Assembly (NCBI RefSeq): GCF_900102875.1
Contig: NZ_FNGH01000005.1
Coordinates: forward strand, 1-64,000
Reading direction: 5' to 3'
Source: Franzmannia pantelleriensis
GTDB lineage: Bacteria > Pseudomonadota > Gammaproteobacteria > Pseudomonadales > Halomonadaceae
Length of the DNA stretch: 64,000 nt
The position numbers and the translations under genes were made by a program. The notes beneath the pieces were generated by a model that had not been told where the DNA came from, searched no databases, and worked only from the letters and a program-made list of their open reading frames with translations. Positions 34,482 to 55,608 of this stretch are shown here, one piece after another; the first letter of the stretch is position 1; each line of letters begins with the position of its first letter.

Positions 34482-34498
34482 GATGAAAGACCTCTTGT

Positions 34499-36568: not shown

Positions 36569-37269
36569 CCCCGCGTATCGACACCACCGCCATGGACGCC
36601 TTGATGGTGCGATTGTTCGACGCCATCGACGAGCGCAACATGGCCTGGATCATGGCCGCCGACCGCGCCCTGCGCGACGCCTTTGGCGATGCACTGATCG
36701 ATCTGGTGCCCTCCTACACTACCCTGCTGGTGCACTACGACTGCCAACGGTTGGGTCACGCAGCGGCACGCGCACGCACGCTGCAGGCCCTCGATGGCCT
36801 GCAGCCGGCCGATACCCAGAGCGGACAGCTGCACGAGATCCCGGTGTGGTACGACGAGAGCGTCGGTCCTGAACTGCCGCGGGTCGCACAGCGCGCCGGG
36901 CTCGATGTCGAGACCCTGATCGCGCGCCACTGCAGCCACGACTACTGCGTGTTCGCGCTGGGCTTTGCGCCCGGCTACGGCTTCATGGGATTGGTTGACG
37001 AGGACCTGGCCACCCCGCGGCTGGAAACGCCGCGGCGCAAGGTCGCCGCCGGCAGCGTGGGTATCGCTGATCGCCAGACGGCCATCTATCCGCTGCTCTC
37101 ACCCGGCGGCTGGAATATTCTCGGCCGCACCGCAGTACCGCTGTTTGAGCATGCCCGCCGCGGCGAACCGCTGCTGCTTCCCGGCGACAAGGTCCGCTTC
37201 AAGGCCATCTCGCGCGCCGAGTTCGAAGCCGACGGTGGCGACACTACGCCGCTGGAGGAGCGCCCATGA
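36565..37269 (+). CDS. pxpB: 5-oxoprolinase subunit PxpB (KipI family)
   Basis: A 234-residue subunit starting at GTG 36565, overlapping the pxpA stop by four bases. The C-terminal cyclophilin-like region carries the family marks [19 protein letters not shown] (about 132), the [19 protein letters not shown] stretch and [10 protein letters not shown]. It works with PxpC as the ATP-using half of the enzyme. Its stop overlaps pxpC by four bases. Confidence 0.94.
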
Positions 37270-38204
37270 GCCAGGCCACGACCGGTATCGTCGTCAAACA
37301 GACCGGCCCGCTGGCGCTGGTCCAGGACGCCGGACGTTTCGGTATCCGCCACCTGGGCGTGACCCAGGGCGGCGCCGCCGACTGGATCTCGTTTCGCTGG
37401 GCCAACTGGCTGCTCGGCAACCCTCTCGACAGCGCCGCACTGGAGATCGTCATGGGCGGCGGCCTGACCCTCGAGGTGGAGCGCGCCACGCGCCTGGCCC
37501 TGGCCGGCGCCGACCTCGCCGCGACCCTCGACGATGTGCCCCTGACGCCAGGCACCAGCTTCAGCGTGCGCGCCGGCCAGCGGCTGGTGTTCCGCCAGCC
37601 GCTGGCCGGGCTGCGTGCCTATCTGGCGTTCCCCGGCGGCCTCGACGCGCCGCAGGTGCTGGGTAGCCGCGCCTGCACCGCACGCGAACGGTTGGGTGGC
37701 CTACACGACGATGGCCAGCCGCTGATCGCCGACGATCGCCTGACCTGGCCCGGCGAGGCACCCGCTGAGCGTCGGCTGACCAAGGGCCAGGGGACACGCA
37801 TGCCCGAATCAGGCTGCCGCCTGTCGCTGGTGCCCGGCGCGCAGGTCGCCCACTTCAGCGGCGTCAGCCTCTACCGCGCTTTCAATTTGCCGTGGCAGGT
37901 CGACAACCGCGCCGACCGCATGGGCGTGCGGCTCACCGGACCTGCACTGCGCTGTTCGCTGCGCGGCATGGTCTCCGAGGGCATTCCGCTGGGCGCCGTT
38001 CAGGTGCCCGCCGACGGCCAGCCTATCGTGCTGCTCAACGACCGCCAGACCATCGGCGGCTATCCGCGCCTTGGCGCCCTCACCCCCAGCGCCTGCGCCG
38101 CCCTCGCCCAGTGCTTGCCGGGTACCGAAGTGCGCCTGGCGCCCCAGAGTCCCGGCCAGGCACAGGAAGCGCATCTGCGCCAGCTGGCAGCTTGGCAAGA
38201 CTGA
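37266..38204 (+). CDS. pxpC: 5-oxoprolinase subunit PxpC (KipA family)
   Basis: A 312-residue subunit, the biotin-carboxylase-associated AHS2 family. Marks are LVQDAGRFGIRHLGVTQGGAAD (about 18-39), LRAYLAFPGGLD and the late GMVSEGIPLGAVQVPADGQPIVLLND. It ends the pxpABC operon. After the stop, no clear hairpin terminator is seen before the next operon, 190 bp away. Confidence 0.94.
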   Translation: MSQATTGIVVKQTGPLALVQDAGRFGIRHLGVTQGGAADWISFRWANWLLGNPLDSAALEIVMGGGLTLEVERATRLALAGADLAATLDDVPLTPGTSFSVRAGQRLVFRQPLAGLRAYLAFPGGLDAPQVLGSRACTARERLGGLHDDGQPLIADDRLTWPGEAPAERRLTKGQGTRMPESGCRLSLVPGAQVAHFSGVSLYRAFNLPWQVDNRADRMGVRLTGPALRCSLRGMVSEGIPLGAVQVPADGQPIVLLNDRQTIGGYPRLGALTPSACAALAQCLPGTEVRLAPQSPGQAQEAHLRQLAAWQD

Positions 38205-38352: not shown

Positions 38353-38397
38353 GCAGCCAGTATGCACCTTATAACGACAACAGCGGCGGAGCCTGCG

Positions 38398-39153
38398 ATG
38401 CCAGAGGCAATCATCGAGACCACCGGCCTGACCAAGAGCTTCAAGGGGTTCAGGGCGGTCAACGACATTTCCTTTCAGGTGCTGCCGGGCACCATTCACG
38501 CCATGATCGGCGCCAACGGCGCCGGCAAGACCACCTGCTTCAATCTGCTCACCAAGTTCCTGCGCCCCACCAGCGGCCAGATCCTGTTCAAGGGTCGCGA
38601 TATCACCACCCTCAAGCCCGATCAGATCGCCCGCCTGGGCCTGGTGCGCTCGTTCCAGATCTCGGCGGTGTTCGGCCGCCTGACCGTGCTGGAGAACGTC
38701 AAGCTGGCGCTGCAGCGTCACCGCGGCGAATCCTACGATTTCTGGGGGTCGCACCGCCGTCTCGACCACCAGCGTCAGCGCGCCGAAGCGCTGCTCGACG
38801 ACGTCGGTCTGAGCGATGTAGTGGACACCCCTGCCGCCGAGCTGCCCTACGGCCGCAAGCGCGCCCTGGAGCTTGCCACCACCCTGGCGCTGGACCCGCA
38901 GGTGATGCTGCTCGACGAACCGCTGGCCGGCATGGGCACCGAAGACGTAGGCCGTATCGCCGCCCTGATCCGACGAGTGGCGGAGGGCCGTACCGTGCTG
39001 ATGGTGGAGCACAATCTCGGGGTGGTGGCCGAGCTGTGCGACCGCATCACCGTGCTGGCGCGCGGCGAGATACTGGTGGAGGGTGACTACGCCACGGTGT
39101 CCAAGGATCCGCGCGTCATCGAATCCTATATCGGAGGTGCCGCCCATGGCTGA
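38398..39153 (+). CDS. livG: Branched-chain-type ABC transporter ATP-binding protein LivG, cassette 1
   Basis: A 251-residue ATPase of the LivG class. The start is ATG 38398 behind GGCGGAG; an earlier ATG at 38362 lacks a ribosome site. Walker A GANGAGKT is at about residues 37-44, the family's RSFQISAVFGRLTVLENV follows, the signature region is LPYGRKRALELA (a variant of LSGG) and Walker B is VMLLDEPLAGM. Its 3' end overlaps livF by eight bases. This pair lies apart from the rest of cassette 1, separated by an antiparallel regulator gene. Confidence 0.92.
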   Translation: MPEAIIETTGLTKSFKGFRAVNDISFQVLPGTIHAMIGANGAGKTTCFNLLTKFLRPTSGQILFKGRDITTLKPDQIARLGLVRSFQISAVFGRLTVLENVKLALQRHRGESYDFWGSHRRLDHQRQRAEALLDDVGLSDVVDTPAAELPYGRKRALELATTLALDPQVMLLDEPLAGMGTEDVGRIAALIRRVAEGRTVLMVEHNLGVVAELCDRITVLARGEILVEGDYATVSKDPRVIESYIGGAAHG

Positions 39154-39874
39154 GCCAGCCCGCGACTCGCAACCCGCCACGATGCTCAGTATTCGTAACC
39201 TCAACGCCTGGTACGGCGAGAGTCACGTGCTCCACGGCATCGACCTCGAGGTGCCCGAAGGTCAGGTGGTAACCCTGCTGGGGCGCAACGGCGCCGGCAA
39301 ATCCACCACCCTGAAGTCGATCATGGGCCTCGTGCCCCGGCGTGAGGGCAATATCCGCCTGCAAGGCGCCGAGACCATCGCCCAGCCGCCCTTTCAGATC
39401 GCCCGGCAGGGGATCGCCTTCTGCCCCGAGGACCGCGGGATCTATGCCACCCTCGACGTACGCGAGAATATCGAGTTGCCGCGGCGCATCAATGCCAACG
39501 GTCTCACCACCGAGCAGATCCTGGACCTGTTTCCCAACCTGCGTGAGCGCCTGCACAGCCCCGGCTCCAAGCTCTCCGGGGGCGAGCAGCAGATGCTGGC
39601 GATTGGCCGCATCCTGCGCACCGGGGCGCGCTTTCTGCTCCTCGACGAGCCCACCGAAGGCCTGGCGCCGGCCATCGTCGAGCAGATCGGCAACACCATC
39701 CGCCACCTCAAGGAACAGGGCTACACCATCCTGCTGGTAGAACAGAACCTGCGCTTCGCGATGTCGCTGGCCGACCACCACTATCTGGTCGACCACGGCC
39801 AGGTGGTAGCCAGTTACGACCGCCAGAGCATCGAGCAGAATGCCGATGCGCTACTGGCCCAGCTCGGCGTGTGA
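39146..39874 (+). CDS. livF: Branched-chain-type ABC transporter ATP-binding protein LivF, cassette 1
   Basis: A 242-residue ATPase of the LivF class. The start is ATG 39146 with GGAGG eight bases before; the open frame further upstream lies inside livG. Walker A GRNGAGKS is at about 42-49, the LivF-type AFCPEDRGIYATLDVREN at about 91, the signature LSGGEQQML and Walker B LLLDEPTEGLAP. It ends six bases before the convergent AraC-type gene. Confidence 0.93.
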   Translation: MAEPARDSQPATMLSIRNLNAWYGESHVLHGIDLEVPEGQVVTLLGRNGAGKSTTLKSIMGLVPRREGNIRLQGAETIAQPPFQIARQGIAFCPEDRGIYATLDVRENIELPRRINANGLTTEQILDLFPNLRERLHSPGSKLSGGEQQMLAIGRILRTGARFLLLDEPTEGLAPAIVEQIGNTIRHLKEQGYTILLVEQNLRFAMSLADHHYLVDHGQVVASYDRQSIEQNADALLAQLGV

Positions 39875-39880
39875 CCGCCA

Positions 39881-40741
39881 TCACTCCTGGCTGTGGTGTC
39901 GAAAGTGCGACGGCGAAACGCCCTTCATGCGCTTGAAGGTCTTGGAGAAAGCGAACGGACTCTGATAGCCGACCCGTACCGCGATCTCCTCCACCGGCAA
40001 GCTGCTGGTGGCCAGCAGATGGGCGGCGTGCTGCATGCGCAGCTGGGTCAGCTGCTGCATGGGGCTGCGGCCGAATACCTTGCGGCTGATGCGCCGCAGA
40101 TGCTCGCTGCTGACATGGGCTATCTCGGCCATTTCCTCGATGGTCCAGTGCTTTTCCAGGGTCGGTATCACCGCATCGAACACCGCCACGATGCGCGTGT
40201 CCCGCCGCCAGGGATCGGCGAAGCGCGAGATATAGCGCTCGATGGTGTCCCCCCACATCTCGCAGCTGGCAGCATCGCCCTGGCCGTGAAATACCTCACT
40301 GTAGAGCCCCAGGATGGCATGTTTCATCGGCTCGGGATCGAAATGCTGCATGATCGGCGCAATGGTGCCTACCACCGAGCGCGGCGCGCTGGGCAGATAG
40401 CGCACCCAGCAGTACTGCCAGCGGCTACCGGGGACGGCGTGGAAGGCATGCAGGCCATGGGCAGGGGCGAAGGACATCATGTTGCGGCGCATGGTGCACC
40501 AGCCGCCGTCGAGCAGCATGCGCCCCTCGCCGCCCAGCGAGCCGTGAATATAGGCGCCGCTGAGTCGTGTGCGCACGATCCGGTAAGGCACGGCGGCATC
40601 GCCGACGCCGACGTGGGAGATATGCCGATCGCGCAGCGCCTGGCAGTCATCCACGCGCACGATCCACTGCCGAGTATCGCCGCCAACAATGTGGGTTTCG
40701 GATAGGTAGTCGTGCTCTGACGCCATGGCGGGATCACTCAT
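39881..40741 (-). CDS. AraC family transcriptional regulator
   Basis: A 286-residue regulator with an N-terminal cupin-like sensor (about 20-150, with HVGVGDAAVPYRIVRTRLSG) and a C-terminal double helix-turn-helix (about 190-284; SSLPVEEIAVRVGYQSPFAFSKTFKRMKGVSP). The start is ATG 40741 behind AAGGG. It lies antiparallel inside the first Liv cassette, divergent from livK, so it probably senses the imported compound or a product and activates livKHM and the genes behind it. Confidence 0.9.
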   Translation of the reverse strand: MSDPAMASEHDYLSETHIVGGDTRQWIVRVDDCQALRDRHISHVGVGDAAVPYRIVRTRLSGAYIHGSLGGEGRMLLDGGWCTMRRNMMSFAPAHGLHAFHAVPGSRWQYCWVRYLPSAPRSVVGTIAPIMQHFDPEPMKHAILGLYSEVFHGQGDAASCEMWGDTIERYISRFADPWRRDTRIVAVFDAVIPTLEKHWTIEEMAEIAHVSSEHLRRISRKVFGRSPMQQLTQLRMQHAAHLLATSSLPVEEIAVRVGYQSPFAFSKTFKRMKGVSPSHFRHHSQE

Positions 40742-40847
40742 TTTGGCCCTTACTGATAACAGCAACACATAACAGAAACCGGTTGATTAACGCCAACTAT
40801 AACAACAACGCCACACAACAATAGCTCTCAGAGCACAGGAGAATACA

Positions 40848-42080
40848 ATGCCAGCCAAGATCCCTTTTAAAACCTTCGCCCTGTCGTCGATGGTGCTCGC
40901 CATGGGCGCCGCATCCGGTGCCATGGCCAGCAACGGCTTTTCCGACGACGTAGTGCGTATCGGCGTGCTGACAGATATGTCCGGTATCTACACCGACCTC
41001 TCCGGCGAAGCCGCGGTCGAGGCGGTACGCATGGCCGTCGAGGACTTCGGTGGCGAGGTCGGTGGCGTCCCCATCGACGTCATCTACGGTGACCACCGCA
41101 ACCGCGCCGATACCGGCGCCAGCCGCGCCCGTGAATGGTACGACAGCGACGGCGTCGACATGATCAACGACCTCTCCAACTCCGGGGTTGCCCTGGCGGT
41201 AGCGGCGGTTGCCGAAGAGCGCCAGCGCCACGCCATCGTCAACTCGTCCTCCAATATCGGTCTGACCAACGACTACTGCTCGCCCTATGTGACCCACTAC
41301 ACCTACGACGCCCACTCGCTGGCCCACGGTACCGGCAAGTCGATCGTCGAGGACGGCGGCGATACCTGGTTCTTCCTGACCGTCGACTTCGCCTTTGGCA
41401 TCGGGCTCGAAGAACAGGTCTCGGAGGTGGTGCGCGAGGCCGGCGGTCAAGTCGTGGGGGCGGCCCGCCACCCGCTGGATACCACCGACTTCTCCTCCTA
41501 CGCCCTGCAGGCCCAGGCCTCGGGCGCCGAGATCATCGGCATCGCCTCGACCGGCGCCGATGCCATCAACGCCATCAACGCGCTGGCCGAGTTCGGTGTT
41601 ACGCCCGGCCAGCGCCCGGCGGCCCTGCTGCTGTGGTACGACGACATCGTCAGCCTCGGCCTGGAGACCGCTCAAGGCCTGATGCTCACCAATGCCTTCT
41701 ACTGGGACGCCAACGACGAGACCCGCGAGTTCTCCGAGCGCTTCTACGAGCGCACCGGGCGCATGCCCAACATGGCTCACGCCGGCAACTACTCTTCCAC
41801 CATGCACTACCTCAACGCCGTGGAAGCCGCGGGAACGGACGACCCGGACGCGGTCTCCGAGCAGATGCGCGAACTGGAAATCAACGACTTCTTCGCCAGC
41901 GGCGGCTATATCCGCCCCAATGGCCGCATGGTCCACGACCAGTACCTGTGGGAGGTCAAGTCGCCAGACGAGTCGGAGTATGACTACGACTTCCTGCGCC
42001 TGCTGACCACCATCCCCGGTGAGGAAGCCTTCCAGCCGCTGGAAAACAGCACCTGCCATCTGCTTGACAACGACCAGTAA
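40848..42080 (+). CDS. livK: ABC transporter substrate-binding protein (LivK/Peripla_BP_6), cassette 1
   Basis: A 410-residue periplasmic receptor with a signal peptide ending at GAMA (about residue 27) and mature start SNGFSDDVVRIGVLTDMSGIY. The type I receptor fold is complete, with SSSNIGLTNDYCSPYVTHYTYD (about 131) on the ligand-contacting side. The two cysteines (in DYCSP and STCHLL) could pair. The sequence group resembles receptors for aromatic or amide compounds rather than leucine, but the ligand is not identifiable. A GGAG site precedes the ATG. A strong hairpin follows, as is common after highly expressed receptor genes. Confidence 0.9.
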   Translation: MPAKIPFKTFALSSMVLAMGAASGAMASNGFSDDVVRIGVLTDMSGIYTDLSGEAAVEAVRMAVEDFGGEVGGVPIDVIYGDHRNRADTGASRAREWYDSDGVDMINDLSNSGVALAVAAVAEERQRHAIVNSSSNIGLTNDYCSPYVTHYTYDAHSLAHGTGKSIVEDGGDTWFFLTVDFAFGIGLEEQVSEVVREAGGQVVGAARHPLDTTDFSSYALQAQASGAEIIGIASTGADAINAINALAEFGVTPGQRPAALLLWYDDIVSLGLETAQGLMLTNAFYWDANDETREFSERFYERTGRMPNMAHAGNYSSTMHYLNAVEAAGTDDPDAVSEQMRELEINDFFASGGYIRPNGRMVHDQYLWEVKSPDESEYDYDFLRLLTTIPGEEAFQPLENSTCHLLDNDQ

Positions 42081-42088
42081 GTGACGCC

Positions 42089-42114
42089 GCTGCCCGGGGA
42101 CTCCCCCGGGCAGC
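42089..42114 (+). terminator. Strong hairpin between livK and livH of cassette 1
   Basis: GCTGCCCGGGG (42089-42099) pairs perfectly with CCCCGGGCAGC (42104-42114) over a 4-base loop. There is no T-run. This looks like an mRNA stabiliser or partial terminator that keeps receptor level above permease level, not an operon end. Confidence 0.6.
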
Positions 42115-42163
42115 ACCGTGATACCGACCGTCGTCCCTTTGTTCTCTCTGTGAGCAGTCAATC

Positions 42164-43051
42164 ATGGATATCTTCGGTGTACCCATTCAGGCCCTGATGG
42201 GTCAGCTCATGCTGGGTATCGTCAACGGCTCCTTCTATGCCGTCCTGAGCCTCGGCCTGGCGATCATCTTCGGCGTGCTCAAGATCGTCAATTTCGCCCA
42301 CGGTGCCTTTTTCATGCTGGGTGCCTTCACCGCCTTCCTGCTGGCCCAGCACCTTGGCGCCAACTACTGGACCACCCTGCTGGTGGCACCGCTGGCCGTC
42401 GCACTGTTCGGCATGCTGTTCGAGTGGCTGTTCCTGCGCCGGCTGTACGGGCTCGACCCGATCTACGGCCTGCTGCTGACGTTCAGCCTGGTACTGGTGC
42501 TGGAGGGCGGCTTCCGGGTCGCCTTCGGCTCCTCCGGCCAACCCTTTGCCACTCCGGAAGCGCTGCGCGGCACCCTTAACCTTGGCTTCATGATCCTGCC
42601 CATGTATCGCGGGTTCGTGATCGTCGCGGCACTACTGGTGTGCCTGGTGACCTGGTTCGTGATCGAACGCACCTCGCTGGGCGCCAACCTGCGCGCCGCC
42701 ACCGAGCGCGCCGAATTGACCCAGGCCTTCGGCATCAACGTGCCGCGTCTGGTGACCCTGACCTACGGCGTCGGCGTGGGCCTGGCAGCGTTTGCCGGGG
42801 TGCTCGCCGCGCCGATCTTTCACGTCAATCCATCGATGGGCTCGAGCCTGGTGATCATCATCTTCGCGGTAGTGGTCATCGGCGGGTTGGGGTCGATCAT
42901 GGGCGCCATTGTCACCGGCCTGGGGCTGGGCGTGGTGGAGGGCTTCACCCGGGTGTTCTACTCGGAGTTCTCCTCGACCATCGTGTTTCTGGTCATGGTG
43001 CTGGTACTGCTGCTACGCCCGGCCGGTCTGTTCGGCCGAGAGGAGGGCTGA
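42164..43051 (+). CDS. livH: Branched-chain-type ABC transporter permease LivH, cassette 1
   Basis: A 295-residue inner-membrane permease with about eight spans. LivH marks are GSFYAVLSLGLAIIFGVLKIVNFAHGAFFMLGAF at the N-terminal end (segments of the family-conserved NxAHG motif) and GAIVTGLGLGVVEGF near the end. The gene starts 50 bp after the hairpin. Its stop is two bases before the LivM start. Confidence 0.92.
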   Translation: MDIFGVPIQALMGQLMLGIVNGSFYAVLSLGLAIIFGVLKIVNFAHGAFFMLGAFTAFLLAQHLGANYWTTLLVAPLAVALFGMLFEWLFLRRLYGLDPIYGLLLTFSLVLVLEGGFRVAFGSSGQPFATPEALRGTLNLGFMILPMYRGFVIVAALLVCLVTWFVIERTSLGANLRAATERAELTQAFGINVPRLVTLTYGVGVGLAAFAGVLAAPIFHVNPSMGSSLVIIIFAVVVIGGLGSIMGAIVTGLGLGVVEGFTRVFYSEFSSTIVFLVMVLVLLLRPAGLFGREEG

Positions 43052-43053
43052 CC

Positions 43054-44052
43054 ATGCAACTTCGCTCCCTGACCTGGCCGCTGCTGATCGTCGGCCTGCT
43101 AGCGCTGCTGGCGGTGCCTTTCTTCCCACAGCTGGTGTACTCGGTGTTCATCATGAAGACGCTGTGCTTCGTGCTGTTCGCTTGCGCCTTCAACCTGCTG
43201 CTGGGGCATACCGGCATTCTCTCCTTCGGCCACGCCGCCTTCTTCGGTAGCGGCGCCTATGTCACCGGCCAGCTGGTCAAGGCCTATGGCGTGCCCACCG
43301 AACTGGGGATTCTTGCCGGCGGCCTGGTGGCTGCGTTTCTGGGGGCAGTGATCGGCGCCCTGGCGATTCGCCGCAGCGGCATCTATTTGGCGATGATCAC
43401 CCTGGCGATATCACAGCTGGTGTTCTTCTTCTTTCTACAGGCGCCCTTCACCGGCGCCGAGGACGGACTGCAGCGGATTCCACGCGGCACCTTTCTGGGG
43501 GTACTCGACCTCAACAACGATACCGCCCTCTACTACGTGGTGCTGGGCATCGTCGGCGCCGGCTTGTGGGTCGTGTGGCGCACCGTCAACTCGCCGTTCG
43601 GCCAGGTAATGCGGGCGATCCGCGAACACGAGCCGCGCGCCATCTCGCTGGGTTATCCGGTGGCCCGCTACAAGGTGCTGGTGTTTGCCCTCTCCGCAGG
43701 CCTGTCGGGCATCGCCGGCTCGCTCAAGGCGATCATCTTCCAGCTGGCAGCACTTTATGACGTCCACTGGCACACCTCCGGCGACGTCATCCTAATGACC
43801 CTGCTGGGCGGCATGAACACCGTGTTTGGCCCCGCCGTGGGCGCGGCCATCGTCTCCACCCTCAACCACTACCTGGACCCGTTCGGTGCCTGGGTCACGG
43901 TGATCATCGGCGTGGTGTTCATGACCTGCGTACTGATGTTCCGCCAGGGCGTGGTGGGCGAGCTAGGCAAGCTGTTGGCGTCACGTCGGTCGCCCACAGC
44001 GCCGCCTGACACGACGCCTCACGCCAGCGCGCATGCCGATAGCCACCGCTGA
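43054..44052 (+). CDS. livM: Branched-chain-type ABC transporter permease LivM, cassette 1
   Basis: A 332-residue permease. The start is ATG 43054 behind GAGGAGGG; an open frame stretches far upstream through livH but is a shadow. LivM marks are [19 protein letters not shown] (about 51), [15 protein letters not shown] (about 107) and [17 protein letters not shown] with the EAA-like loop. The C-terminal 25 residues form a His- and Ala-rich tail. It reads into the TIM-barrel gene, whose start lies 34 bp after the stop. Confidence 0.92.
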
Positions 44053-44086
44053 ACCCTACTCGAACCTCACAACCAAGGAGGCCAGC

Positions 44087-44914
44087 ATGGCCCAGCTCGA
44101 TAGAACCACCCTGATGGCCCGCTTTCGCGACATGGCCGCACGCGGCCAGCCAATCATCGGCGGCGGCGCCGGCACCGGCATCTCGGCCAAGTGCGAGGAG
44201 GCCGGCGGCATCGACCTGATCGTGATCTACAACTCCGGGCGCTACCGTATGGCCGGCCGCGCATCCTCTGCCGGCCTGCTGGCCTACGGCAATGCCAACC
44301 AGATCGTCCAGGAGATGGCGCTGGAGGTGTTGCCGGTGGTCAAGCACACCCCGGTCCTGGCCGGGGTCAACGGCACCGACCCCTTCGTAATCATGCCCAA
44401 GCTGCTGCGCGAGCTTAAGGACCTGGGCTTCTCCGGGGTGCAGAACTTCCCCACCGTGGGCCTGATCGACGGCACCTTCCGCATCAGCCTGGAGGAGACC
44501 GGGATTACCTACGCCGACGAGGTGGAGATGATCCGCCAGGCCCATGAGATGGACATGCTGACCACGCCGTATGTGTTCTCCGCCGAGGAGGCAGTGGCGA
44601 TGACCGAGGCCGGCGCCGACATCATCGTCGCGCATATGGGGGTCACGGTAGGCGGCACCATTGGCGCCGCCTCGGCCAAGACACTCGACGAGTCGGTGCG
44701 GCTGATCGATGAGTGGGCGGCGGCGGCGCGCGAGGTACGCGACGATGTGCTGGTGCTGTGCCACGGCGGCCCCATCGCCACCCCCGAAGACGCCGCCTAT
44801 GTGATGCGCGAGAGCAAGCTATGCCATGGCTTCTACGGCGCCTCGAGCATGGAGCGCCTGCCTACGGAGATCGCGCTCACCGAGCAGATCCGCCAGTTCA
44901 AGGCCATCTCATAA
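44087..44914 (+). CDS. PEP hydrolase-like TIM-barrel protein, first copy
   Basis: A 275-residue cytosolic TIM barrel of the phosphoenolpyruvate hydrolase-like family (Pfam PF09370), the same domain as the C-terminal half of the plant resistance protein Tm-1. The start is ATG 44087 behind GGAGG. Conserved blocks include [19 protein letters not shown] (about 23-41), [13 protein letters not shown], the [13 protein letters not shown] phosphate-site-like loop (about 224) and a closing [15 protein letters not shown] second copy lies 1.7 kb downstream. The reaction is not established; the family name rests on one biochemical report that I cannot verify here. Confidence 0.83.
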
Positions 44915-44939
44915 GCCACACCATAACAAGGAGCACACC

Positions 44940-45374
44940 ATGACCCGCGTCTATGTCAGTGCCGTCATGCCGATCAGCCTGGAACAAGCTTGGCGCGTAC
45001 TGCGCGACTTCAACGGCCTGCCCGACTACCACCCGTTCTTCGCCAAGAGCTATATCGAGGACGGCAAGCCCGCCGACCAGGTGGGCTGCGTGCGCCACTT
45101 CCACGACCACGACGGCAACGCCATCCGCGAGGAGTTGCTGTCGCTCTCCGACCGCGAGCATCTGTGCTGCTATCGGATCCTCGACGCCCCGGCGCTGCCG
45201 GTGCGTGGCTATGTGTCGGAGATGCGCCTCAAGCCGATCACCACCAGCGGCCACTGCTTCGGCGAGTGGTGGGCGGAGTTCGAGGTCGACGACGCTGACC
45301 ATGATGACGTGGTCCAGCGCGTCGGCGACACCTTCCGCCTGGCCTTCGAAGGGGCCGCCGAGCGCGCCAGCTAG
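44940..45374 (+). CDS. SRPBCC (START-like) family protein
   Basis: A 144-residue soluble protein of the SRPBCC/polyketide-cyclase fold with one hydrophobic pocket for a ligand. The start is ATG 44940 behind AAGGAG. Marks are MPISLEQAWRVLRDFNGLPDYHP at the N-terminal end and a C-terminal amphipathic helix VVQRVGDTFRLAFEGA. Proteins of this fold bind or cyclise small hydrophobic molecules. It is one of four non-transport genes held between two Liv cassettes, so it may act on the imported compound. No specific function can be assigned. Confidence 0.82.
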   Translation: MTRVYVSAVMPISLEQAWRVLRDFNGLPDYHPFFAKSYIEDGKPADQVGCVRHFHDHDGNAIREELLSLSDREHLCCYRILDAPALPVRGYVSEMRLKPITTSGHCFGEWWAEFEVDDADHDDVVQRVGDTFRLAFEGAAERAS

Positions 45375-45383
45375 GAGGCACTC

Positions 45384-46604
45384 ATGCAACCCATCGCCTA
45401 TCTGATCGGCACCTGCGACACCAAGGCCGGCGAACTACGCTACCTGCGCGAGCGCCTGACGGCCGCCGGCGTCGCCAGCTGCGTCGTCGATGTCGGCACC
45501 CGAGGCGACGCCCAAGGGGTCGCCGACGTAAGCGCCGCCGAGGTGGCTACCTGCCACCCCGAGGGGGCCGCCGCGGTGTTCGTCGACGACCGCGGCCGCG
45601 CCGTGGCGGCCATGGCAGAAGCACTGCGCCATTGGCTGCCGGGCCGTCAGGATCTCGGTGGCGCGCTGGGGATCGGCGGCTCCGGCGGTACCGCGCTGAT
45701 CGCCCCGGCGCTGCGCGAGCTGGATATCGGCGTGCCCAAGCTGCTGGTCTCGACCATCGCCTCCGGCAACGTGGCGCCCTATGTCGGCCCCAGCGACATC
45801 GCCATGCTCTACTCGGTCACCGACGTGGCTGGCCTCAACCGCATCTCGCGGCGGGTACTCGGCAACGCCGCCCATGCCCTGGCCGGCATGCTGCAAGGCC
45901 AGGTGCCCGAGGTCGCCGAGGACAAGCCGGCCATCGGCCTGAGCATGTTCGGGGTGACCACGACCTGCGTCAATCAACTCAGTAGTGCTCTCGAGGCCGA
46001 CTATGACTGCCTGGTGTTCCACGCCACCGGCACCGGCGGTCGCTCGCTGGAGAAGCTCGCCGACAGCGGCATGATCGCAGGCCTGCTCGATGTCACTACC
46101 ACCGAGATCTGTGATCTGTTCATGGGCGGCGTATTCAGCGCCGGCGCAGAGCGCCTCGACGTCATCGCCCGCAAAGCACTGCCCTATGTCGGATCGGTGG
46201 GGGCGCTGGACATGGTCAACTTCGGCGCACCGGACACGGTGCCGGCGGCCTATCGCCAGCGCCTGTTCTATGAGCACAACCCGCAGATCACCCTGATGCG
46301 CACCACCGCCGAGGAGAATGCGCGCATGGGCCGCTGGATCGGCGAGAAGCTCAACCGCAGCCGCGGGCCGGTGCGTTTTCTACTTCCTGAAGGCGGCGTC
46401 TCGGCGCTCGACGCGCCGGGCCAGCCCTTCCACGACCCCGAGGCCGACGCGGCGCTGTTCGAGGCTCTCGAAGCCACCGTCGAGCAGACCCCCGAGCGCC
46501 GTTTGATCCGCTACCCCTTCAATATCAACGATCCCGAGTTTGCCGCCGCCCTGGTCGAGCACTTTCAGGACGTCATGACGACAGCTCCGAGGAAAGACAA
46601 TTGA
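45384..46604 (+). CDS. Tm-1-like ATP-binding protein (UPF0261)
   Basis: A 406-residue protein of the UPF0261 family (Pfam PF06792), corresponding to the N-terminal half of tomato Tm-1. The N-terminal block [18 protein letters not shown] (about 8-25) and the glycine-rich [14 protein letters not shown] (about 91-104) form the nucleotide site; GVTTTCVN and [13 protein letters not shown] follow. The N-terminal half looks like a P-loop-free nucleotide fold. Bacterial genes of this family usually neighbour a PEP hydrolase-like barrel, as here on both sides. The biochemical role in bacteria is unknown. The stop overlaps the second barrel's TTG start. Confidence 0.86.
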
Positions 46605-47434
46605 GACATTGGAATAGAGAAGCATTGATGACGCACTTCCAGGCCATGGTGGCACGCGGCGAGCCCATCGTGGGTGGTGGCGCCGGGACCGGCCTATCGG
46701 CCAAGTGCGAGGAAGCCGGCGGTATCGACCTGATCGTGATCTATAACTCCGGGCGCTACCGCATGGCCGGGCGCGGCTCGCTGGCAGGGATCATGCCGTA
46801 TGGCAACGCCAACGAGATCGTCAAGGAGATGGCCCGGGAAGTACTGCCGGTCACCCAGAACACCCCGGTGCTGGCGGGCATATGCGGCACCGACCCGTTC
46901 GTGTTCATGGAGCCCTTCCTGGCCGAGCTCAAGGCGATGGGCTTCGCCGGCGTGCAGAACTTCCCTACCGTGGGCCTGATCGACGGCACCTTCCGCGCCA
47001 ACCTGGAAGAGACCGGCATGCGCTATGCCCAGGAAGTGGACATGATCCGGCAAGCGCGGGAGGCGGGGCTACTCACCACCCCCTACGTGTTCAGCGCCGA
47101 CGACGCACGTGCCATGACGGAAGCCGGTGCCGACATCATCGTCTGCCACATGGGCCTGACCACCGGGGGCAGCATTGGCGCCGAGACCGCCATGAGCCTT
47201 GACGACTGCGTGGCGGCGATCAATGACTGGGCGGCAGCGGCCAGAGCCGTGCGTGACGACGTCATCATACTCTGCCACGGCGGCCCGATTGCCGACCCAC
47301 AGGATGCCGAGTACATCCTGGCCCGCTGCCGCGACTGCCATGGCTTCTACGGTGCCTCGAGCATGGAGCGCCTGCCCACCGAGCGCGCCCTGACCGAACA
47401 GACCCGAGCCTTCAAGAACGTCCGGCGGGGCTGA
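46601..47434 (+). CDS. PEP hydrolase-like TIM-barrel protein, second copy
   Basis: A 277-residue paralogue of the barrel at 44087, nearly identical in most conserved blocks ([39 protein letters not shown]). The start is taken as TTG 46601, which overlaps the Tm-1-like stop and follows GAGGAAAG; the first copy aligns to exactly this residue, whereas ATG 46628 would cut ten aligned residues. It lacks the SRPBCC neighbour of the first copy. Differences cluster in [14 protein letters not shown] versus [14 protein letters not shown] and in the late helices, so the copies may differ in substrate or pair as a heteromer. Confidence 0.83.
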
Positions 47435-47504
47435 TCGCCATGTGTTGTAACGATAATAACAGCCGACTGGCAACGCCACGCTCGATCAAATGGGAGGTGC
47501 GTCC

Positions 47505-48362
47505 GTGCACACCTTCTACTTTCTGACCCTCAATGGCCTGACCATGGCGGCATTGCTGTTCATCATGGCCAGCGGCCTGACCCTGGCCTTCGGGCTGATG
47601 CGCGTGGTCAACCTGGCCCACGGCGCCTTCTATCTGCTGGGCGGCTATGTCGGGGTCCAGGTGATTCGCGACACCGGTAGTCTGACGCTGGGCCTGCTGG
47701 CCGGCGGTGCCATCGCCCTGCTGGTCGGCCTGCTGATGGAACGCTTCCTGCTGCAGCGGGTGCGCGGCCTGGATCTCTCCGAGGCGCTGCTGACCATTGC
47801 CGTGGGGCTGATCATCGCCGACGCCCTGCTGGTGGTGTATGGCGGGCAGCCGGTGAGCCTGCCGTTGCCCCGCGAGCTGCGTGCACCGGTGGACCTCGGC
47901 GTGATGATGTACCCCTACTTCCGGGTGCTGATCATGGTCTTTGCCGTGCTGCTGGGCATCGCGCTGTGGCTGGTGATGACCTATACCCGCCTCGGTGCCG
48001 CCATCCGCGCCGGCGTCGATGATCGCGAAACCGCCATGTCCCAGGGCATCAACGTGCCGCTGCTGTTCGGCGGCGTGTTTGCCGTGGCCAGCTTCCTGGC
48101 CGGCGTGGCCGGCGTGGTGGGTACCTCCTACATGTCGCTGACCCAAGGGCTCGACGTGCGGGTGCTGATGCTGTCGCTGGTGGTGATCATCATCGGCGGC
48201 ATGGGCTCACTCAAGGGCGCCGCGGTCGGTGCGCTGATCACCGGCATGGTGTCGAGTTTCGCCACCGGTTATCTGCCGCAGTTCGCGCTGTTCTTTCTGT
48301 TCCTGCCGATGACGCTGATTCTGGTCTTCCGCCCTCAAGGGCTGTTCGGGAGGGCTGCATGA
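47505..48362 (+). CDS. livH: Branched-chain-type ABC transporter permease LivH, cassette 2
   Basis: A 285-residue permease of the LivH class and a distant paralogue of the cassette 1 protein. The start is GTG 47505, eight bases after GGGAGG; the upstream ATG 47490 would contain that ribosome site. Marks are MRVVNLAHGAFYLLGGYVG (about 35) and GMGSLKGAAVGALITGM near the end. It lies 70 bp after the second TIM-barrel gene and overlaps LivM by ATGA. Confidence 0.9.
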   Translation: MHTFYFLTLNGLTMAALLFIMASGLTLAFGLMRVVNLAHGAFYLLGGYVGVQVIRDTGSLTLGLLAGGAIALLVGLLMERFLLQRVRGLDLSEALLTIAVGLIIADALLVVYGGQPVSLPLPRELRAPVDLGVMMYPYFRVLIMVFAVLLGIALWLVMTYTRLGAAIRAGVDDRETAMSQGINVPLLFGGVFAVASFLAGVAGVVGTSYMSLTQGLDVRVLMLSLVVIIIGGMGSLKGAAVGALITGMVSSFATGYLPQFALFFLFLPMTLILVFRPQGLFGRAA

Positions 48363-49333
48363 AACGCGAATACCTGATCATTCTGGCGCTACTCGCCGTC
48401 CTCGTGGCATGGCCGCTGCTGATGGGCAACTATGCGGTCTCCCAAGCCAACCGGGCGATGATCTATGCCCTGGCGGCGCTGAGCTTCTCGCTGCTGGCAG
48501 GTCGGCTGGGCTGGTTCTCGCTGTGCCAGACCACCTTCGCCGGCATCAGCGGCTATACCGTCGCCATTCTGGGAGTGCGCTTCGGCCTGCCCTTTCCGCT
48601 GGTGGTCACGCTGGCACTGCTGCTCACCACGCTGAGCGCCGTGATCTTCGGCCTGCTGACCGTGCGCTCACGCAAGGTGGGCTTCCTGATGCTGACGCTG
48701 GCTCTGGGGCAGATGGTCTGGGCGCTGTCGTTCCAGTGGGTCGACGTCACCGGCGGCTACAACGGCATCGCCGGGGTACGCATGCCGGTGTATGGCGGTA
48801 TCGACTTCAATGCTACCCGGGTCTTCTACGTACTGGTCACGACGGTCACGGTGGCGATCTTCCTCGCCGTGTGGCGATTGTATCGTTCGCCCTTCGGGCT
48901 ACTGCTGCTGGGGATACAGGAGAACGAGCAGCGCATGCGCGCCCTGGGCCATCCGGTTGCCCTGGCCCGCTTCAGCGCCTTCGTGCTGGCCGGGGCCATC
49001 GCCGGGGTGGCGGGGGTCTTCCTGGTCTACGACATGGGCATCATGTCGCCGTCACCGCTGGGCCTGGGGCACGCCGTGTGGGTGCTGACCGCCGCGGTAC
49101 TGGGCGGCTATCGCAGCCTGTTGGGCCCTGCTCTCGGGGTGGCCGTCCTGATCACCCTGGAAACTCTGGTAGCCCAGTACACCGACCGACACATGATGGT
49201 GATCGGCCTGGTCCTGCTGCTCTCGATTCTGCTGATGCCCCGGGGGCTGGCAGACGTGCTCGAGCAGCGTTTCAAACGCAAATCGAAGCCACAGGCTTCC
49301 GCGACAACAACAACCCAAGGAGAAGAGCCATGA
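48359..49333 (+). CDS. livM: Branched-chain-type ABC transporter permease LivM, cassette 2
   Basis: A 324-residue permease of the LivM class starting in an ATGA overlap. Marks are RLGWFSLCQTTFAGISGY (about 49), VGFLMLTLALGQMVWAL and IQENEQRMRALGHPVALARF, the EAA-like loop that docks the ATPase. It ends with a low-complexity Thr/Gln tail that overlaps the receptor start by four bases. Confidence 0.9.
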   Translation: MKREYLIILALLAVLVAWPLLMGNYAVSQANRAMIYALAALSFSLLAGRLGWFSLCQTTFAGISGYTVAILGVRFGLPFPLVVTLALLLTTLSAVIFGLLTVRSRKVGFLMLTLALGQMVWALSFQWVDVTGGYNGIAGVRMPVYGGIDFNATRVFYVLVTTVTVAIFLAVWRLYRSPFGLLLLGIQENEQRMRALGHPVALARFSAFVLAGAIAGVAGVFLVYDMGIMSPSPLGLGHAVWVLTAAVLGGYRSLLGPALGVAVLITLETLVAQYTDRHMMVIGLVLLLSILLMPRGLADVLEQRFKRKSKPQASATTTTQGEEP

Positions 49334-50577
49334 AGTACGCCAAGACGCTCATCATAGGCAGCGTATCCGCCCTGGCGGTAGGCGCCACTGCCCACCTGCA
49401 AGCCGACGACACGCTGCGTATCGGGGTGATCGGCCCCACCACCGGAGTATTCTCCTTCTTTGGCGAACAGCAACGCATGGGCGTTGAGCTGGCCATGGAG
49501 GAACTTGCCGAGCGCCTCGACGCACTCAATCTAGAGGTCGAGTTCTACGACTCCCAGGGCGATGCCGAGACCACCGTCGACCGGCTGCGGGCCATGGAGT
49601 CCCGCGATAACGTCGATCTGGTGGTGGGACCGGTGCTGGGCGGCACCGGCCTGGCCGGCCTGGAGTGGGCCAAGGGTTCGGGCATGCCGACGGTGATCTC
49701 CTACTCGGCACCCGAGGACATTACCATGCGCGACCGCGCCGAAAACGTGGTGCGTGCCGGCTGGACCGGGGCACAGCCGATGTTCGCCTTCGGCGAATAC
49801 GTCGCCGAGGAGCTGGGCCACCAGCGCATCGTCATGGTGGGGCAGGATTACTCCTTCCCCTACAACCAGCTGGGCGGTTTCCTCAAGGGCTTCTGCGCCG
49901 CGGGCGGGGAATCGGTGGAGCGCATCTGGCACCCCACCGGCACTTCCGACTACAGCTCCATTCTGGCCACCCTCCCGGATGGCGATGCGCTGCTCTACAA
50001 CGGCGCCGGCAGCGATGGCCTGGCGTTCTTCCAGCAGTATCACGACTTCGGTATCGACGCGCGCATGCCGCTGCTGGGGGGCTCCAATTTCTTCGCCGTA
50101 GGCGACCTGCCGGAGATGGGCGAGCAGGCCATCGGCGGTCTCTCGGCGCTACAGTATGCCGAAGGCCTGGAGAGCGACACCTTCCTGGCCTTCCGCGATG
50201 CCTTCTGGGCGATGCACGGCGATGAGGTGATGCCGCTGGCCCCGGCCGAGCACGGCTACGTGGCCTTCAAGATGGCGGTGGATGCCTTCGAGAGTGCCAA
50301 CGGCGGCGACCGCGACGCGGTGATTGCCGCCTTGCGCGCCACCGAAATGCCGGACGCACCGCGCGGCCCCTTCCACCTCGACGACTACGGCAACCCGGTA
50401 CAGAACATCTACATCAACGAGGTGCAGGAGGTGGACGGCCGGCTGGTCAACGTGCCGATCAAGACCTACGAGAGCGTCAGCCAGTTCGGCCCCTTCGAGG
50501 CCGAGGCATACCTGGCCGGCGAACCCGACAGCCGCGACTTCCCGCCGGGCAGCTGTGCGGACCCCTACTATGACTGA
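49330..50577 (+). CDS. livK: ABC transporter substrate-binding protein (LivK/Peripla_BP_6), cassette 2
   Basis: A 415-residue receptor with a signal peptide (about 1-25) and mature start DDTLRIGVIGPTTGVFSFFG. The start is ATG 49330; a long open frame upstream lies over livM and is a shadow. It differs clearly from the cassette 1 receptor, including a VGPVLGGTGLAGLEWAKGSG ligand loop near 96 and AAGGESVERIWHPTGTSDYSS, so the two cassettes probably carry different or differently sized ligands. The stop overlaps the LivG start. Confidence 0.88.
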   Translation: MKYAKTLIIGSVSALAVGATAHLQADDTLRIGVIGPTTGVFSFFGEQQRMGVELAMEELAERLDALNLEVEFYDSQGDAETTVDRLRAMESRDNVDLVVGPVLGGTGLAGLEWAKGSGMPTVISYSAPEDITMRDRAENVVRAGWTGAQPMFAFGEYVAEELGHQRIVMVGQDYSFPYNQLGGFLKGFCAAGGESVERIWHPTGTSDYSSILATLPDGDALLYNGAGSDGLAFFQQYHDFGIDARMPLLGGSNFFAVGDLPEMGEQAIGGLSALQYAEGLESDTFLAFRDAFWAMHGDEVMPLAPAEHGYVAFKMAVDAFESANGGDRDAVIAALRATEMPDAPRGPFHLDDYGNPVQNIYINEVQEVDGRLVNVPIKTYESVSQFGPFEAEAYLAGEPDSRDFPPGSCADPYYD

Positions 50578-51334
50578 CGCACAACCCGAGATGAGCCCTG
50601 TGCCGGCGCTGGAGGTCGCCGGCCTGGCCAAGTCCTTCGGCTCGCTGATGGTGGCCAGCGATGTCCATCTGCGCGTCACGCCCGGAGAGCGGCGCGGGCT
50701 GATTGGCGTCAACGGCGCCGGCAAGACCACGCTGTTCAACATGATCGCCGGCGAGCTCAAGCCCGACCGTGGATCTATCGGCTTCTTCGGCGAGGATATC
50801 ACCCGCGACTCGGTCATCCAGCGTACCCTCAAGGGGCTCGGCCGCACCTATCAGGTATCCACGCTGGTACCCTCGGTCACCGTCCGGGAGAACCTGGCGC
50901 TGGCCAGGGGAGACGGCCGACTGCCGTCGCTGTGGCAGCCCTGGCAGTCTCGCCTCGACGACGACCTGATGACCACCGCCGACCAGCTGGGGCTGACGCC
51001 CGTGCTCGATGAGGCGGTGGCCAATCTCTCCTACGGCACCCTGCGTCAGTTGGAACTGGCCATGGTGATGGCGCAGAAACCGCGGCTGCTGCTGCTCGAT
51101 GAGCCCGCTGCAGGCCTCTCCCATGCCGAGCGCCAAGTGCTACAGGGCATTCTGCAGGATCTGCCACAGGAGGTGACCCTGCTGATGATCGAGCATGATA
51201 TGGAGATGGTGCTGGCACTCAGCGATCGCATATCGGTGCTGCATCAGGGCGAGATGTTCGCCGAAGGGACGCCTGAGGAAATTTCCGCCCACCAGGGCGT
51301 ACGCGATATCTATCTGGGGCGTGCCAATGGCTGA
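50570..51334 (+). CDS. livG: Branched-chain-type ABC transporter ATP-binding protein LivG, cassette 2
   Basis: A 254-residue ATPase starting at ATG 50570 inside the last bases of the receptor gene. Walker A GVNGAGKT is at about 45-52, LGRTYQVSTLVPSVTVREN follows, the signature is LSYGTLRQLELA (an LSGG variant shared with cassette 1) and Walker B is LLLLDEPAAGLS. It overlaps LivF by eight bases. Confidence 0.9.
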   Translation: MTDAQPEMSPVPALEVAGLAKSFGSLMVASDVHLRVTPGERRGLIGVNGAGKTTLFNMIAGELKPDRGSIGFFGEDITRDSVIQRTLKGLGRTYQVSTLVPSVTVRENLALARGDGRLPSLWQPWQSRLDDDLMTTADQLGLTPVLDEAVANLSYGTLRQLELAMVMAQKPRLLLLDEPAAGLSHAERQVLQGILQDLPQEVTLLMIEHDMEMVLALSDRISVLHQGEMFAEGTPEEISAHQGVRDIYLGRANG

Positions 51335-52043
51335 CACGATGATAGGCGTCGAGCGCCTCGAGGCCCACTACGGGCTGGGCCTGGCGCTACAGGATCTGAC
51401 TTTCAGCGTCGGGAAGGAGTGCGTCGCGATCATGGGCCGCAATGGGGTGGGCAAGACCACCCTGGCGCGGGCGCTGATGGGACTTACCCCTCCCCGAGCA
51501 AGCGGCTCGGTGACGCTGCTCGGGCAGCAGGTGCTCGGCTGGTCACCGCAGCGTATCGCCCACCTGGGAGTGGGCTATGTGCCTCAGGGGCGGCGTCTGT
51601 TTCCTTCGCTCAGCGTCGACGAGCACCTGCAGTTGAACACCCGCAAGGGGCCCACCGGCCAGCGCTGGACGACCAGCCGCGTGTTCGAGCTGTTCCCCTC
51701 GCTGGGCCGACGCCGCCGGGCCTACGGCGATCAGATCTCCGGTGGCGAGCGCTCGATGCTGGCCATCGGCCGCGCCCTGGTCACTAACCCGGGCTGTCTG
51801 ATACTCGATGAACCTACCGAGGGCCTGGCCCCGGCGGTGGTCGAGGATGTCGCTGCGAGCCTGAAGGAGCTGAGCCGCGAGGGGGTCGCCGTGCTGCTGA
51901 TCGAGCAGAACGTCAAGGCGGCGATGCTGGCGGCCGACCGCGCCTACTTCATGTCGGAGGGGCAGATCGTGCATGAGACCGCCGACGGCGAGTCGATGTC
52001 CGATGAAGCGACGCTAGGCCGCTATTTGGGCGTCTCGGTTTAA
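51327..52043 (+). CDS. livF: Branched-chain-type ABC transporter ATP-binding protein LivF, cassette 2
   Basis: A 238-residue ATPase of the LivF class. The start is ATG 51327, overlapping LivG by eight bases. Walker A GRNGVGKT is at about 37-44, the LivF-type GYVPQGRRLFPSLSVDEHL at about 82, the signature ISGGERSML and Walker B LILDEPTEGLAP. It is the last gene of the double-Liv island. The 78 bp that follow hold no clear terminator. Confidence 0.9.
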   Translation: MADTMIGVERLEAHYGLGLALQDLTFSVGKECVAIMGRNGVGKTTLARALMGLTPPRASGSVTLLGQQVLGWSPQRIAHLGVGYVPQGRRLFPSLSVDEHLQLNTRKGPTGQRWTTSRVFELFPSLGRRRRAYGDQISGGERSMLAIGRALVTNPGCLILDEPTEGLAPAVVEDVAASLKELSREGVAVLLIEQNVKAAMLAADRAYFMSEGQIVHETADGESMSDEATLGRYLGVSV

Positions 52044-52121: not shown

Positions 52122-52328
52122 ATGCACCCCGAAGATCTGCAGACCCTGGTCAGCATGAAGATGCCCTACGGCAAGTACGCCGGGCGCCTAATCGCCGACT
52201 TGCCCGGCCCCTACCTGGCGTGGTTCGCCCGCGAGGGATTCCCCCAGGGCGAACTGGGCCGGCTGCTGGCGCTGATGCACGAGATCGACCATAACGGGCT
52301 TAGCGAACTGCTCGACCCGCTACGCTGA
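52122..52328 (+). CDS. DUF3820 family protein
   Basis: A 68-residue cytosolic protein of the DUF3820 family, with the block MPYGKYAGRLIADLPGPYLAWFAREGFPQGELG occupying residues 14-46 (GKY and the DLP-YL-WF pattern). Full-length homologues are of similar size. AGAGGAA precedes ATG 52122. Function is unknown; the fold resembles a putative quorum-sensing-regulated factor. Its last nine bases overlap the convergent TauE gene. Confidence 0.85.
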   Translation: MHPEDLQTLVSMKMPYGKYAGRLIADLPGPYLAWFAREGFPQGELGRLLALMHEIDHNGLSELLDPLR

Positions 52329-53126
52329 GGAAACCGTGTAGACCATCTGCATGGCCAGAATCACCAGCATCACCGCGAACACCCGCTTGAGGGTCGCCAC
52401 CGGCAGGCGGTGGGCGAGCCGCGCCCCCAGCGGGGCGGTGACAATGCTCAGCGGCGCCATCAGCAGCAGCGCCGGCAGGTAGACATAGCCCAGCGCAGCA
52501 CTCGGCAGACCGCTGACGCTCCAGCCGTTGATCAGGTAGCCCAGCGCCCCGGCCAGCGCGATCGGCAGCCCCACCGCTGCGGACGTGCCGATGGCGTGCT
52601 GGACCTTGATGTTGCACCAGGTGAGAAACGGCACGGTAAGCGCCCCGCCGCCGATCGCCACCAGCGCCGAGATACCGCCGATACCGGCCCCCGCCGCGCT
52701 GACCCCCAGTGGGCCCGGCAGGCCACGCGACGGCTGGGGCTTGAGGTTGATCATCATCTGCGCCGCCATCAGCAGCATGAAGCAGGCAAAGAAGATCGCC
52801 AGCCCCCGGGTCGGAATCAGTGCCGCGACGAAGGTCGCCAGAAAGGTACCTGCCAGGATGCCCGGGGTGATATAGCGCACCACCTGCCAGCGCACCGCCC
52901 CATGGCGGTGGTGCGAGCGCAGGCTCGACAGCGACGACGGCACGATGGCGGCCATCGAGGTGCCAAGCGCCAGGTGGGCGAGGTGCTCGTGGGGCACGCC
53001 CTGCAGCACGAACAGCGAGGTCAGCACCGGCACCATGATGCCGCCACCGCCGATACCCAGCAGCCCTGCCATCAGGCCGACGAAACCGCCCAGCGCCATA
53101 TAGGCCAACCACCAAACGAGATCCAA
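52320..53126 (-). CDS. Sulfite exporter TauE/SafE family protein
   Basis: A 268-residue inner-membrane protein with about eight spans in two repeats. Family marks are GLMAGLLGIGGGGIMVPVL (about 16-34) and the second-half counterpart GGISALVAIGGGALTVPFL (about 148-166). Translation starts at TTG 53126, with AGGAG eight bases before on the minus strand. It would export a sulfonate-derived sulfite or a small organic anion. It stands alone. Confidence 0.9.
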   Translation of the reverse strand: MDLVWWLAYMALGGFVGLMAGLLGIGGGGIMVPVLTSLFVLQGVPHEHLAHLALGTSMAAIVPSSLSSLRSHHRHGAVRWQVVRYITPGILAGTFLATFVAALIPTRGLAIFFACFMLLMAAQMMINLKPQPSRGLPGPLGVSAAGAGIGGISALVAIGGGALTVPFLTWCNIKVQHAIGTSAAVGLPIALAGALGYLINGWSVSGLPSAALGYVYLPALLLMAPLSIVTAPLGARLAHRLPVATLKRVFAVMLVILAMQMVYTVSSA

Positions 53127-53291
53127 GGTCTCACTCCTTCTGTCGCATCACACATGACCAAAGTCGGCTAGTGTAGAGCAAAACCGCCCCGCGCTGGGCC
53201 CCAACACCCTCGCACAACGTCTGACTTCCCCCTGCGACGCGGATTGCTTAACGTAACGCTTATCGACCACTGACAGACCCACGAGGCTTCC

Positions 53292-54020: not shown

Positions 54021-54048
54021 CACGCCATGCGTTGCCACAGCCCATGGT

Positions 54049-54077
54049 CGCCCTGGAGGAAGACAACCTCCAGGGCG
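54049..54077 (+). terminator. Hairpin after the solute-binding protein gene
   Basis: CGCCCTGGAGG (54049-54059) pairs perfectly with CCTCCAGGGCG (54067-54077) over a 7-base loop, followed by CTTATTAAG. The U-tract is poor, but position and stem strength fit transcription termination. Confidence 0.65.
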
Positions 54078-54243
54078 CTTATTAAGCGTTTGTCCGACAT
54101 TTGCTCTGCACCGTCTTGGTGCTCGACTTGCCTCTATTTTTCAGAATTTCGCCTCATATCGACGTTCATTTTCAACATGGGTCATGCGCGTGCCGCATAA
54201 TGGTGCAATTAGCCACTACCCTGTCAATGAATGTTACGCATGA

Positions 54244-55608
<1,365 letters not shown>

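Follow-up and report, generated by a model that had tools for sequence, protein, structure and literature searches.

Two separable Liv-type importer operons, each with its own PF09370 barrel, meet at a common Tm-1-like (UPF0261) gene in Franzmannia pantelleriensis

The stretch of DNA analysed here, referred to as the window, comprises 64,000 nucleotides of Franzmannia pantelleriensis (Halomonadaceae; contig NZ_FNGH01000005.1, positions 1 to 64,000, from a 4.4 Mb genome in 40 contigs) and contains a block in which two Liv-type ATP-binding cassette (ABC) importers flank a Tm-1-like (UPF0261) protein, an SRPBCC protein and two barrels of the PF09370 family. The block combines two operons that also occur apart; each has a single importer and a single barrel, and one UPF0261 gene is common to both. 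Reading frames and Pfam matches agree with the first-pass annotation, made from the letters alone, that barrel 1, the SRPBCC protein, the UPF0261 protein and barrel 2 lie between two Liv cassettes of five genes each on the + strand; every gene it named is present as an open frame on that strand, but an AraC-family regulator between livF1 and livK1 (39881-40768, minus strand) had been missed. The first frame of the block starts at 38362, and 38398, the start given in the first-pass annotation, is an internal ATG of livG1. The features are the following:

38362..39153, + strand: livG1, ATPase of importer 1 (PF00005, PF12399; in 18 of the 23 mapped loci, window counted)
39146..39874, + strand: livF1, ATPase of importer 1 (PF00005; 8-base overlap with livG1)
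39881..40768, - strand: AraC-family regulator, divergent from livK1 (PF12833, PF02311; equivalent position in operon A of relatives)
40848..42080, + strand: livK1, binding protein of importer 1 (PF13458, Peripla_BP_6, 334.7 bits)
42164..43051, + strand: livH1, permease (PF02653, BPD_transp_2)
43054..44052, + strand: livM1, permease (open frame and alignment to relatives)
44087..44914, + strand: barrel 1, PF09370 (PEP_hydrolase), partner in operon A (425 bits; own clade, 100/99)
44940..45374, + strand: SRPBCC protein (PF10604)
45384..46604, + strand: UPF0261 / Tm-1-like protein, common to operons A and B, putative small-molecule kinase (PF06792, PF23189)
46601..47434, + strand: barrel 2, PF09370, partner in operon B (444 bits)
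47490..48362, + strand: livH2, permease (NCBIfam UrtB/LivH-type, under cut-offs)
48359..49333, + strand: livM2, permease (open frame and alignment to relatives)
49330..50577, + strand: livK2, binding protein of importer 2 (NCBIfam matches under cut-offs)
50570..51334, + strand: livG2, ATPase (open frame and alignment to relatives)
51327..52043, + strand: livF2, ATPase (open frame and alignment; relatives fused to UPF0261 in 44 of 119 loci)

All genes between livK1 and livF2, both included, share one orientation; neighbours are separated by no more than 83 bases, and five pairs overlap, livG1 and livF1 forming a sixth overlap. The names of livM1, livM2, livG2 and livF2 come from reading frames and alignment with relatives rather than from a family scan. 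Each cassette has the make-up of a Liv/HAAT importer (binding protein, two permeases and two ATPases), and, since the urea and Liv equivalog scores of the six importer parts scanned are all below cut-off, the importer ligand, be it a branched-chain amino acid or another compound, is not assignable from them. The UPF0261 protein matches PF06792 (201.9 bits) and PF23189 (311.4 bits; cut-offs 27), has the Tm-1 fold across its full length and finds its nearest named match in Halomonas (90% identity). Both barrels score over the Pfam cut-off, have the barrel fold and belong to PF09370. The block holds the only UPF0261 gene found in the genome and both of its PF09370 genes.

UPF0261 is present in 23 of 275 Halomonadaceae genomes, and the loci of the window and the 22 other genomes were mapped. 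Operon A (livGF, araC, livKHM, barrel 1, SRPBCC, UPF0261) stands alone in 12 of the 23 and operon B (UPF0261, barrel 2, livHMKGF) in two; A runs into B at one common UPF0261 gene in six, the window genome included. In the remaining three, a sigma-54 activator precedes B, and the A that comes after B is inverted and lacks a UPF0261 gene of its own. The two operons thus lie joined or side by side in 9 of the 11 genomes with operon B. The sigma-54 activator is present in one of the two B-only genomes; in the other (L103), araC lies directly before UPF0261, which resembles the joined block minus the A enzymes, and this locus looks like a former joined block that lost them. The arrangement is not due to chance, since all 22 other mapped Halomonadaceae genomes carry the whole block or modules of it, unlike 20 control regions (18 in genomes of the 60-locus set described below and two in Halomonadaceae).

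The UPF0261 proteins of the 23 genomes form one group, at weak support (67/56; 95/95 with Aquisalimonas included). In tree tests, a clade of joined and operon-B genomes was not rejected (p 0.287) and a clade of joined and A-only genomes was (p 0.0038; the set omitted L103, which nests with the joined genomes). A chimeric UPF0261 gene at the A/B junction was also considered and discarded, as block-wise identities run without a sharp switch. Barrel 1 of L106 (H. socia, also L005) appears in two pieces and may be broken or reflect a sequencing error. The sigma-54 activator beside UPF0261 that was scanned (L009:7323-9125) has an N-terminal PF09370 domain; this barrel may be a ligand sensor, and its ligand could then act as inducer. 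L009:9132-9797 (minus strand, divergent from UPF0261) and L051:11470-12099 each encode a short PF09370-like protein close to both UPF0261 and the sigma-54 activator, and such short proteins score 57-61 bits with Pfam in four Halomonadaceae genomes.

Each importer is inherited together with its own barrel. Close matches (E up to 1e-180) were searched in the 275 genomes, and PF09370 was counted in all 23 UPF0261 genomes: those of LivK1 occur in 21 genomes of four genera, which are the 21 with barrel 1, and those of LivK2 in 11 genomes of three genera, which are the 11 with barrel 2, neither protein being found at this threshold in the 252 Halomonadaceae genomes without UPF0261. A looser search of the 23 genomes found LivK1 paralogues (49-54% identity) in many of them, both B-only genomes included, and the claim of co-inheritance is therefore restricted to close orthologues; moreover, the counts are not independent, since the genomes are related. 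The link between importers and enzymes is supported by this pattern. The first-pass annotation had proposed that four enzymes process a compound brought in by one or both carriers. That the enzymes belong with the importers is borne out by the co-inheritance of each LivK with UPF0261 and the matching barrel and by the LivF fusion described below, but the idea of both importers feeding one pathway of four enzymes is not. The first-pass annotation had stated that its proposal would fail if the two cassettes and the Tm-1 genes were rarely kept together; each importer is kept with its own barrel and UPF0261, but both cassettes lie near UPF0261 in 9 of the 23 genomes, which goes some way against the proposal.

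The barrel had been described as duplicated; instead, barrels 1 and 2 (70-71% identity) represent two old lineages. In a barrel tree of 43 rows, which covers part of the barrels, each lineage forms its own clade (100/99). This tree rejects a recent tandem duplication, and an old duplication, with both barrels held as one clade, was not rejected (approximately unbiased test, p 0.0997). The two clades have 134 invariant columns in common, and 32 columns are invariant within each clade but different between them, two of which lie at the C-terminal end where barrel 1 is gapped; barrel 1 deviates at positions kept by most outgroups (position 59, 12/12; position 61, 11/12). LivK1 and LivK2 are 23% identical. 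These differences between the barrel clades and the divergence of LivK suggest that the two importers and two barrels would serve two related substrates and, with the UPF0261 proteins in one group across the 23 genomes, a single UPF0261 group seems able to partner both barrel lineages.

Wider neighbourhoods were surveyed in 60 loci, corresponding to 50 distinct UPF0261 places (the window and a sub-threshold match omitted) and 10 of the 14 places of another search (G568, a fragment, the sub-threshold match and the window omitted), some of these stretches ending at contig ends. Within about 10 kb, the 34 loci at least 50% identical to the window UPF0261 contain PF09370 in 32, Liv permeases in 17 and sugar-type permeases in 11, and none of these 34 has Liv and sugar-type importers together. 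The 26 more distant loci have PF09370 in three, Liv in two, sugar-type in five, a class II aldolase in three and an aldehyde dehydrogenase in 17, and the 20 control regions have PF09370 in none and Liv permeases, a sugar permease and an aminotransferase in one each. Most of L138-L151 have a distant UPF0261 (29-34% identity) beside genes for an aldehyde dehydrogenase and an aminotransferase, in some cases also TctA-type transport genes, and make up a second class. On a conjugative Pectobacterium plasmid (L053:10001-12081), a UPF0261-PF09370 pair and a divergent TetR gene lie among transfer genes, with no importer annotated nearby.

The window has livF2 and UPF0261 as distinct genes; in many alphaproteobacteria and some other bacteria UPF0261 follows LivF in frame. 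Such a fusion, called by reading to the first stop, is found in 44 of 119 loci, namely 29/47, 15/60 and 0/12 in a 47-locus set, the 60 loci above and 12 annotated plasmid loci, respectively; the 47-locus set is not an even sample, because it was found using the window protein, and may have species in common with the 60-locus set. The linker spans 77-130 residues, keeps a PTRW motif in most fusions and has its substitutions mainly at third codon positions (278/182/790 in 23 close pairs), and Pfam matches to ABC_tran, PF06792 and PF23189 are present in all four fusions scanned. L047 seemed unfused, but its upstream stretch holds X. Public annotation gives the fusion as a single coding sequence in Yoonia and Variovorax plasmids under the name 'ABC transporter permease', a misleading name carried by the fusions L198:15938-18100 and L199:15893-18145. 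A quick tree with 30 of the 44 fused rows rejected the fusion as a single exclusive clade (p 0.00096); one main clade in which splits arose later, together with L158, fits. No UPF0261-PF09370 fusion was found in the 119 bacterial loci, the candidates in L119, L125, L131 and L055 having one stop codon within each stretch.

Just upstream of the block (35816-38204), three overlapping genes, which we take to be the 5-oxoprolinase set pxpABC, are also found upstream of the block in four of the five other joined genomes (L102, L104, L106, L107). The flanks at 33492-35485 and 52320-55608 contain an SBP_bac_3 protein, by Pfam scan, and, by reading, a TRAP binding protein, a LysR regulator, a TauE-like permease and a glutamate dehydrogenase.

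The substrate may be an aromatic or other cyclic hydroxylated compound. The nearest solved relatives of LivK2 are 4zpj, followed by 4ey3, 4evs, 4f06 and 4evq, the last four presumably aromatic-acid binding proteins of Rhodopseudomonas, with E values of 1e-23 to 1e-30, which are weak evidence in so broad a family. In alphaproteobacteria, a larger operon also includes a molybdenum hydroxylase together with MoxR and CoxE, two SRPBCC proteins, flotillin, an iron-type alcohol dehydrogenase (Fe-ADH), an aldehyde dehydrogenase, an amidohydrolase, a lactonase and an isochorismatase, a set that would fit hydroxylation and opening of the ring of a cyclic compound. None of these parts was seen in the Halomonas block except an SRPBCC protein, and, as none of the open-licence papers searched names four of the five parts looked for, the larger operon is not assigned to a pathway. 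Homarine catabolism, a suggestion prompted by the marine hosts, was dropped, as no result pointed that way.

It seems moderately probable that the block is an import-and-process composite in which Liv importers, a common UPF0261 kinase and phosphate-site barrels handle two related substrates. The Liv-type ABC importer of each operon would take up a small organic molecule, UPF0261 would phosphorylate it with ATP, thereby also trapping it in the cell, and the PF09370 TIM barrel, a phosphate-site fold, would act on the phosphorylated product, most likely by cleavage or rearrangement of the carbon skeleton, the one UPF0261 kinase being common to both importer-barrel pairs. The kinase activity is suggested by analogy: besides Tm-1, the UPF0261 protein with a solved structure is Saro_1862 from Novosphingobium (PDB 9mpy), which has bound acetovanillone and is probably MarK, the acetovanillone kinase of Novosphingobium aromaticivorans that starts acetovanillone catabolism. 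The earlier statement that no pathway is described for this gene set thus needs a qualifier, as an acetovanillone-bound UPF0261 structure exists and a kinase of the same organism opens the breakdown of acetovanillone.

Nevertheless, several observations weigh against this reading. The Liv link is frequent and not universal, as sugar-type importers lie near UPF0261 in 11 of the 34 closer loci, and in the Pectobacterium plasmid UPF0261 occurs without an importer nearby. The window protein is just 31% identical to Saro_1862 (root-mean-square deviation 6.5), and the identity of Saro_1862 with MarK is drawn from two titles and a passage. The TIM-barrel fold matches do not establish function, and sequence hints in the barrels lean weakly toward nitronate monooxygenase-type barrels. 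In addition, the co-inheritance counts come from related genomes, and no catabolic enzymes are seen in the block beyond the barrels and the SRPBCC protein. A bolder version of the import-and-process reading, conceivable but doubtful, would make UPF0261 the kinase by which a class of ABC importers traps its substrate, docked on or fused to LivF at the inner mouth, so that ABC transport would have an equivalent of group translocation. In the Halomonas block, as its two-lane version, one kinase would serve both importers and both product-specific barrels, and Tm-1 of plants would stem from the kinase-barrel pair minus the importer.

The C-terminal domains of some ABC ATPases gate their importer, and the fusion of UPF0261 at this end of LivF in 44 of 119 loci, together with the PF09370 domain placed at the N-terminus of the L009 activator, as a ligand sensor would be, could mean that these proteins are control parts, UPF0261 as an ATP-sensing domain gating the importer and the barrel reporting the ligand level. 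This is unlikely, however, given that the UPF0261-barrel pair exists without transporters nearby, that the homologue structure contains acetovanillone and that 134 columns are invariant across both barrel clades, a conservation often seen in enzymes. Quite unlikely is a barrel acting as a flavin enzyme, oxygenase or reductase, of the nitronate monooxygenase (NMO) type, with UPF0261 activating the substrate otherwise than by phosphorylation: although both barrels have sub-threshold NMO matches (25.4 bits for barrel 1 and 22.4 bits for barrel 2; cut-off 28) and weak profile matches (E 0.02-0.1) to structures of 2-nitropropane dioxygenase and FabK, these matches span just part of the C-terminal half of the barrel and, in the best 50 of 1000 fold matches listed, the leading named ones after the top match, 2p10, are not flavin enzymes. 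It is very unlikely that the two cassettes are unrelated pathways made neighbours by chance after horizontal transfer. The operons are indeed separable, A standing alone in 12 genomes and B in two, but both halves use a UPF0261 of the one family-wide, weakly supported group, no close match of either importer was found without UPF0261 in the 275 genomes, and A and B are joined or adjacent in most operon-B genomes.

The co-occurrence of UPF0261 with the barrel and their plant fusion are already known, and here they are placed among import-coupled catabolic operons; no report of the Liv link, the LivF fusion or the two-operon block appears among the literature matches listed, which cover open-licence papers and do not imply absence from print. 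The arrangement of the block links a Tm-1-like protein with the import of a small molecule and the initial step in its processing. We know of no further function assigned to Tm-1, and the bacterial context offers a testable one, that of a small-molecule kinase on imported compounds with the barrel acting next. The LivF-UPF0261 fusion, if functional, would couple ABC transport directly to the first catabolic step. Moreover, the Halomonadaceae provide natural controls, with species that have one importer and barrel, the other, or both.

UPF0261 and the barrel are presumably COG5441 and COG5564. Their tight co-occurrence and co-evolution are described in a passage of PMC5028733, and a COG5441-COG5564 pair is listed for a fungal profile in a passage of PMC8963296. 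In the former, Tm-1 is a plant virus-resistance protein thought to have a further function. Tomato Tm-1 (PDB 3wrw, 3wrx, 3wry) and plant Tm-1-like proteins hold UPF0261 and the barrel in one chain, whereas here, as the first-pass annotation had recognized, they are separate genes in separate frames. The top fold match of the barrels, Mll9387 of Mesorhizobium loti (PDB 2p10), is titled 'putative phosphonopyruvate hydrolase', an activity name that is itself putative, and no tested result here favours a phosphoenolpyruvate (PEP) or phosphonopyruvate reaction. HpeHI, a two-component phenol kinase, and AcvAB are described, in passages of PMC12167813 and PMC13101465, as two proteins that open aromatic-ketone catabolism by phosphorylation, HpeI being an ATP-grasp protein and HpeH a swivel protein (PMC12167813), unlike UPF0261 and the barrels here, for which no ATP-grasp or swivel Pfam match is listed at E up to 10, with filters that drop most weak matches. 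MarK is termed single-component in the passage of PMC13101465, whereas UPF0261 is here paired with barrels and importers. The importers themselves conform to known Liv/Urt-type ABC systems, whose five-part K, H, M, G and F cassettes are the same as those of both operons.

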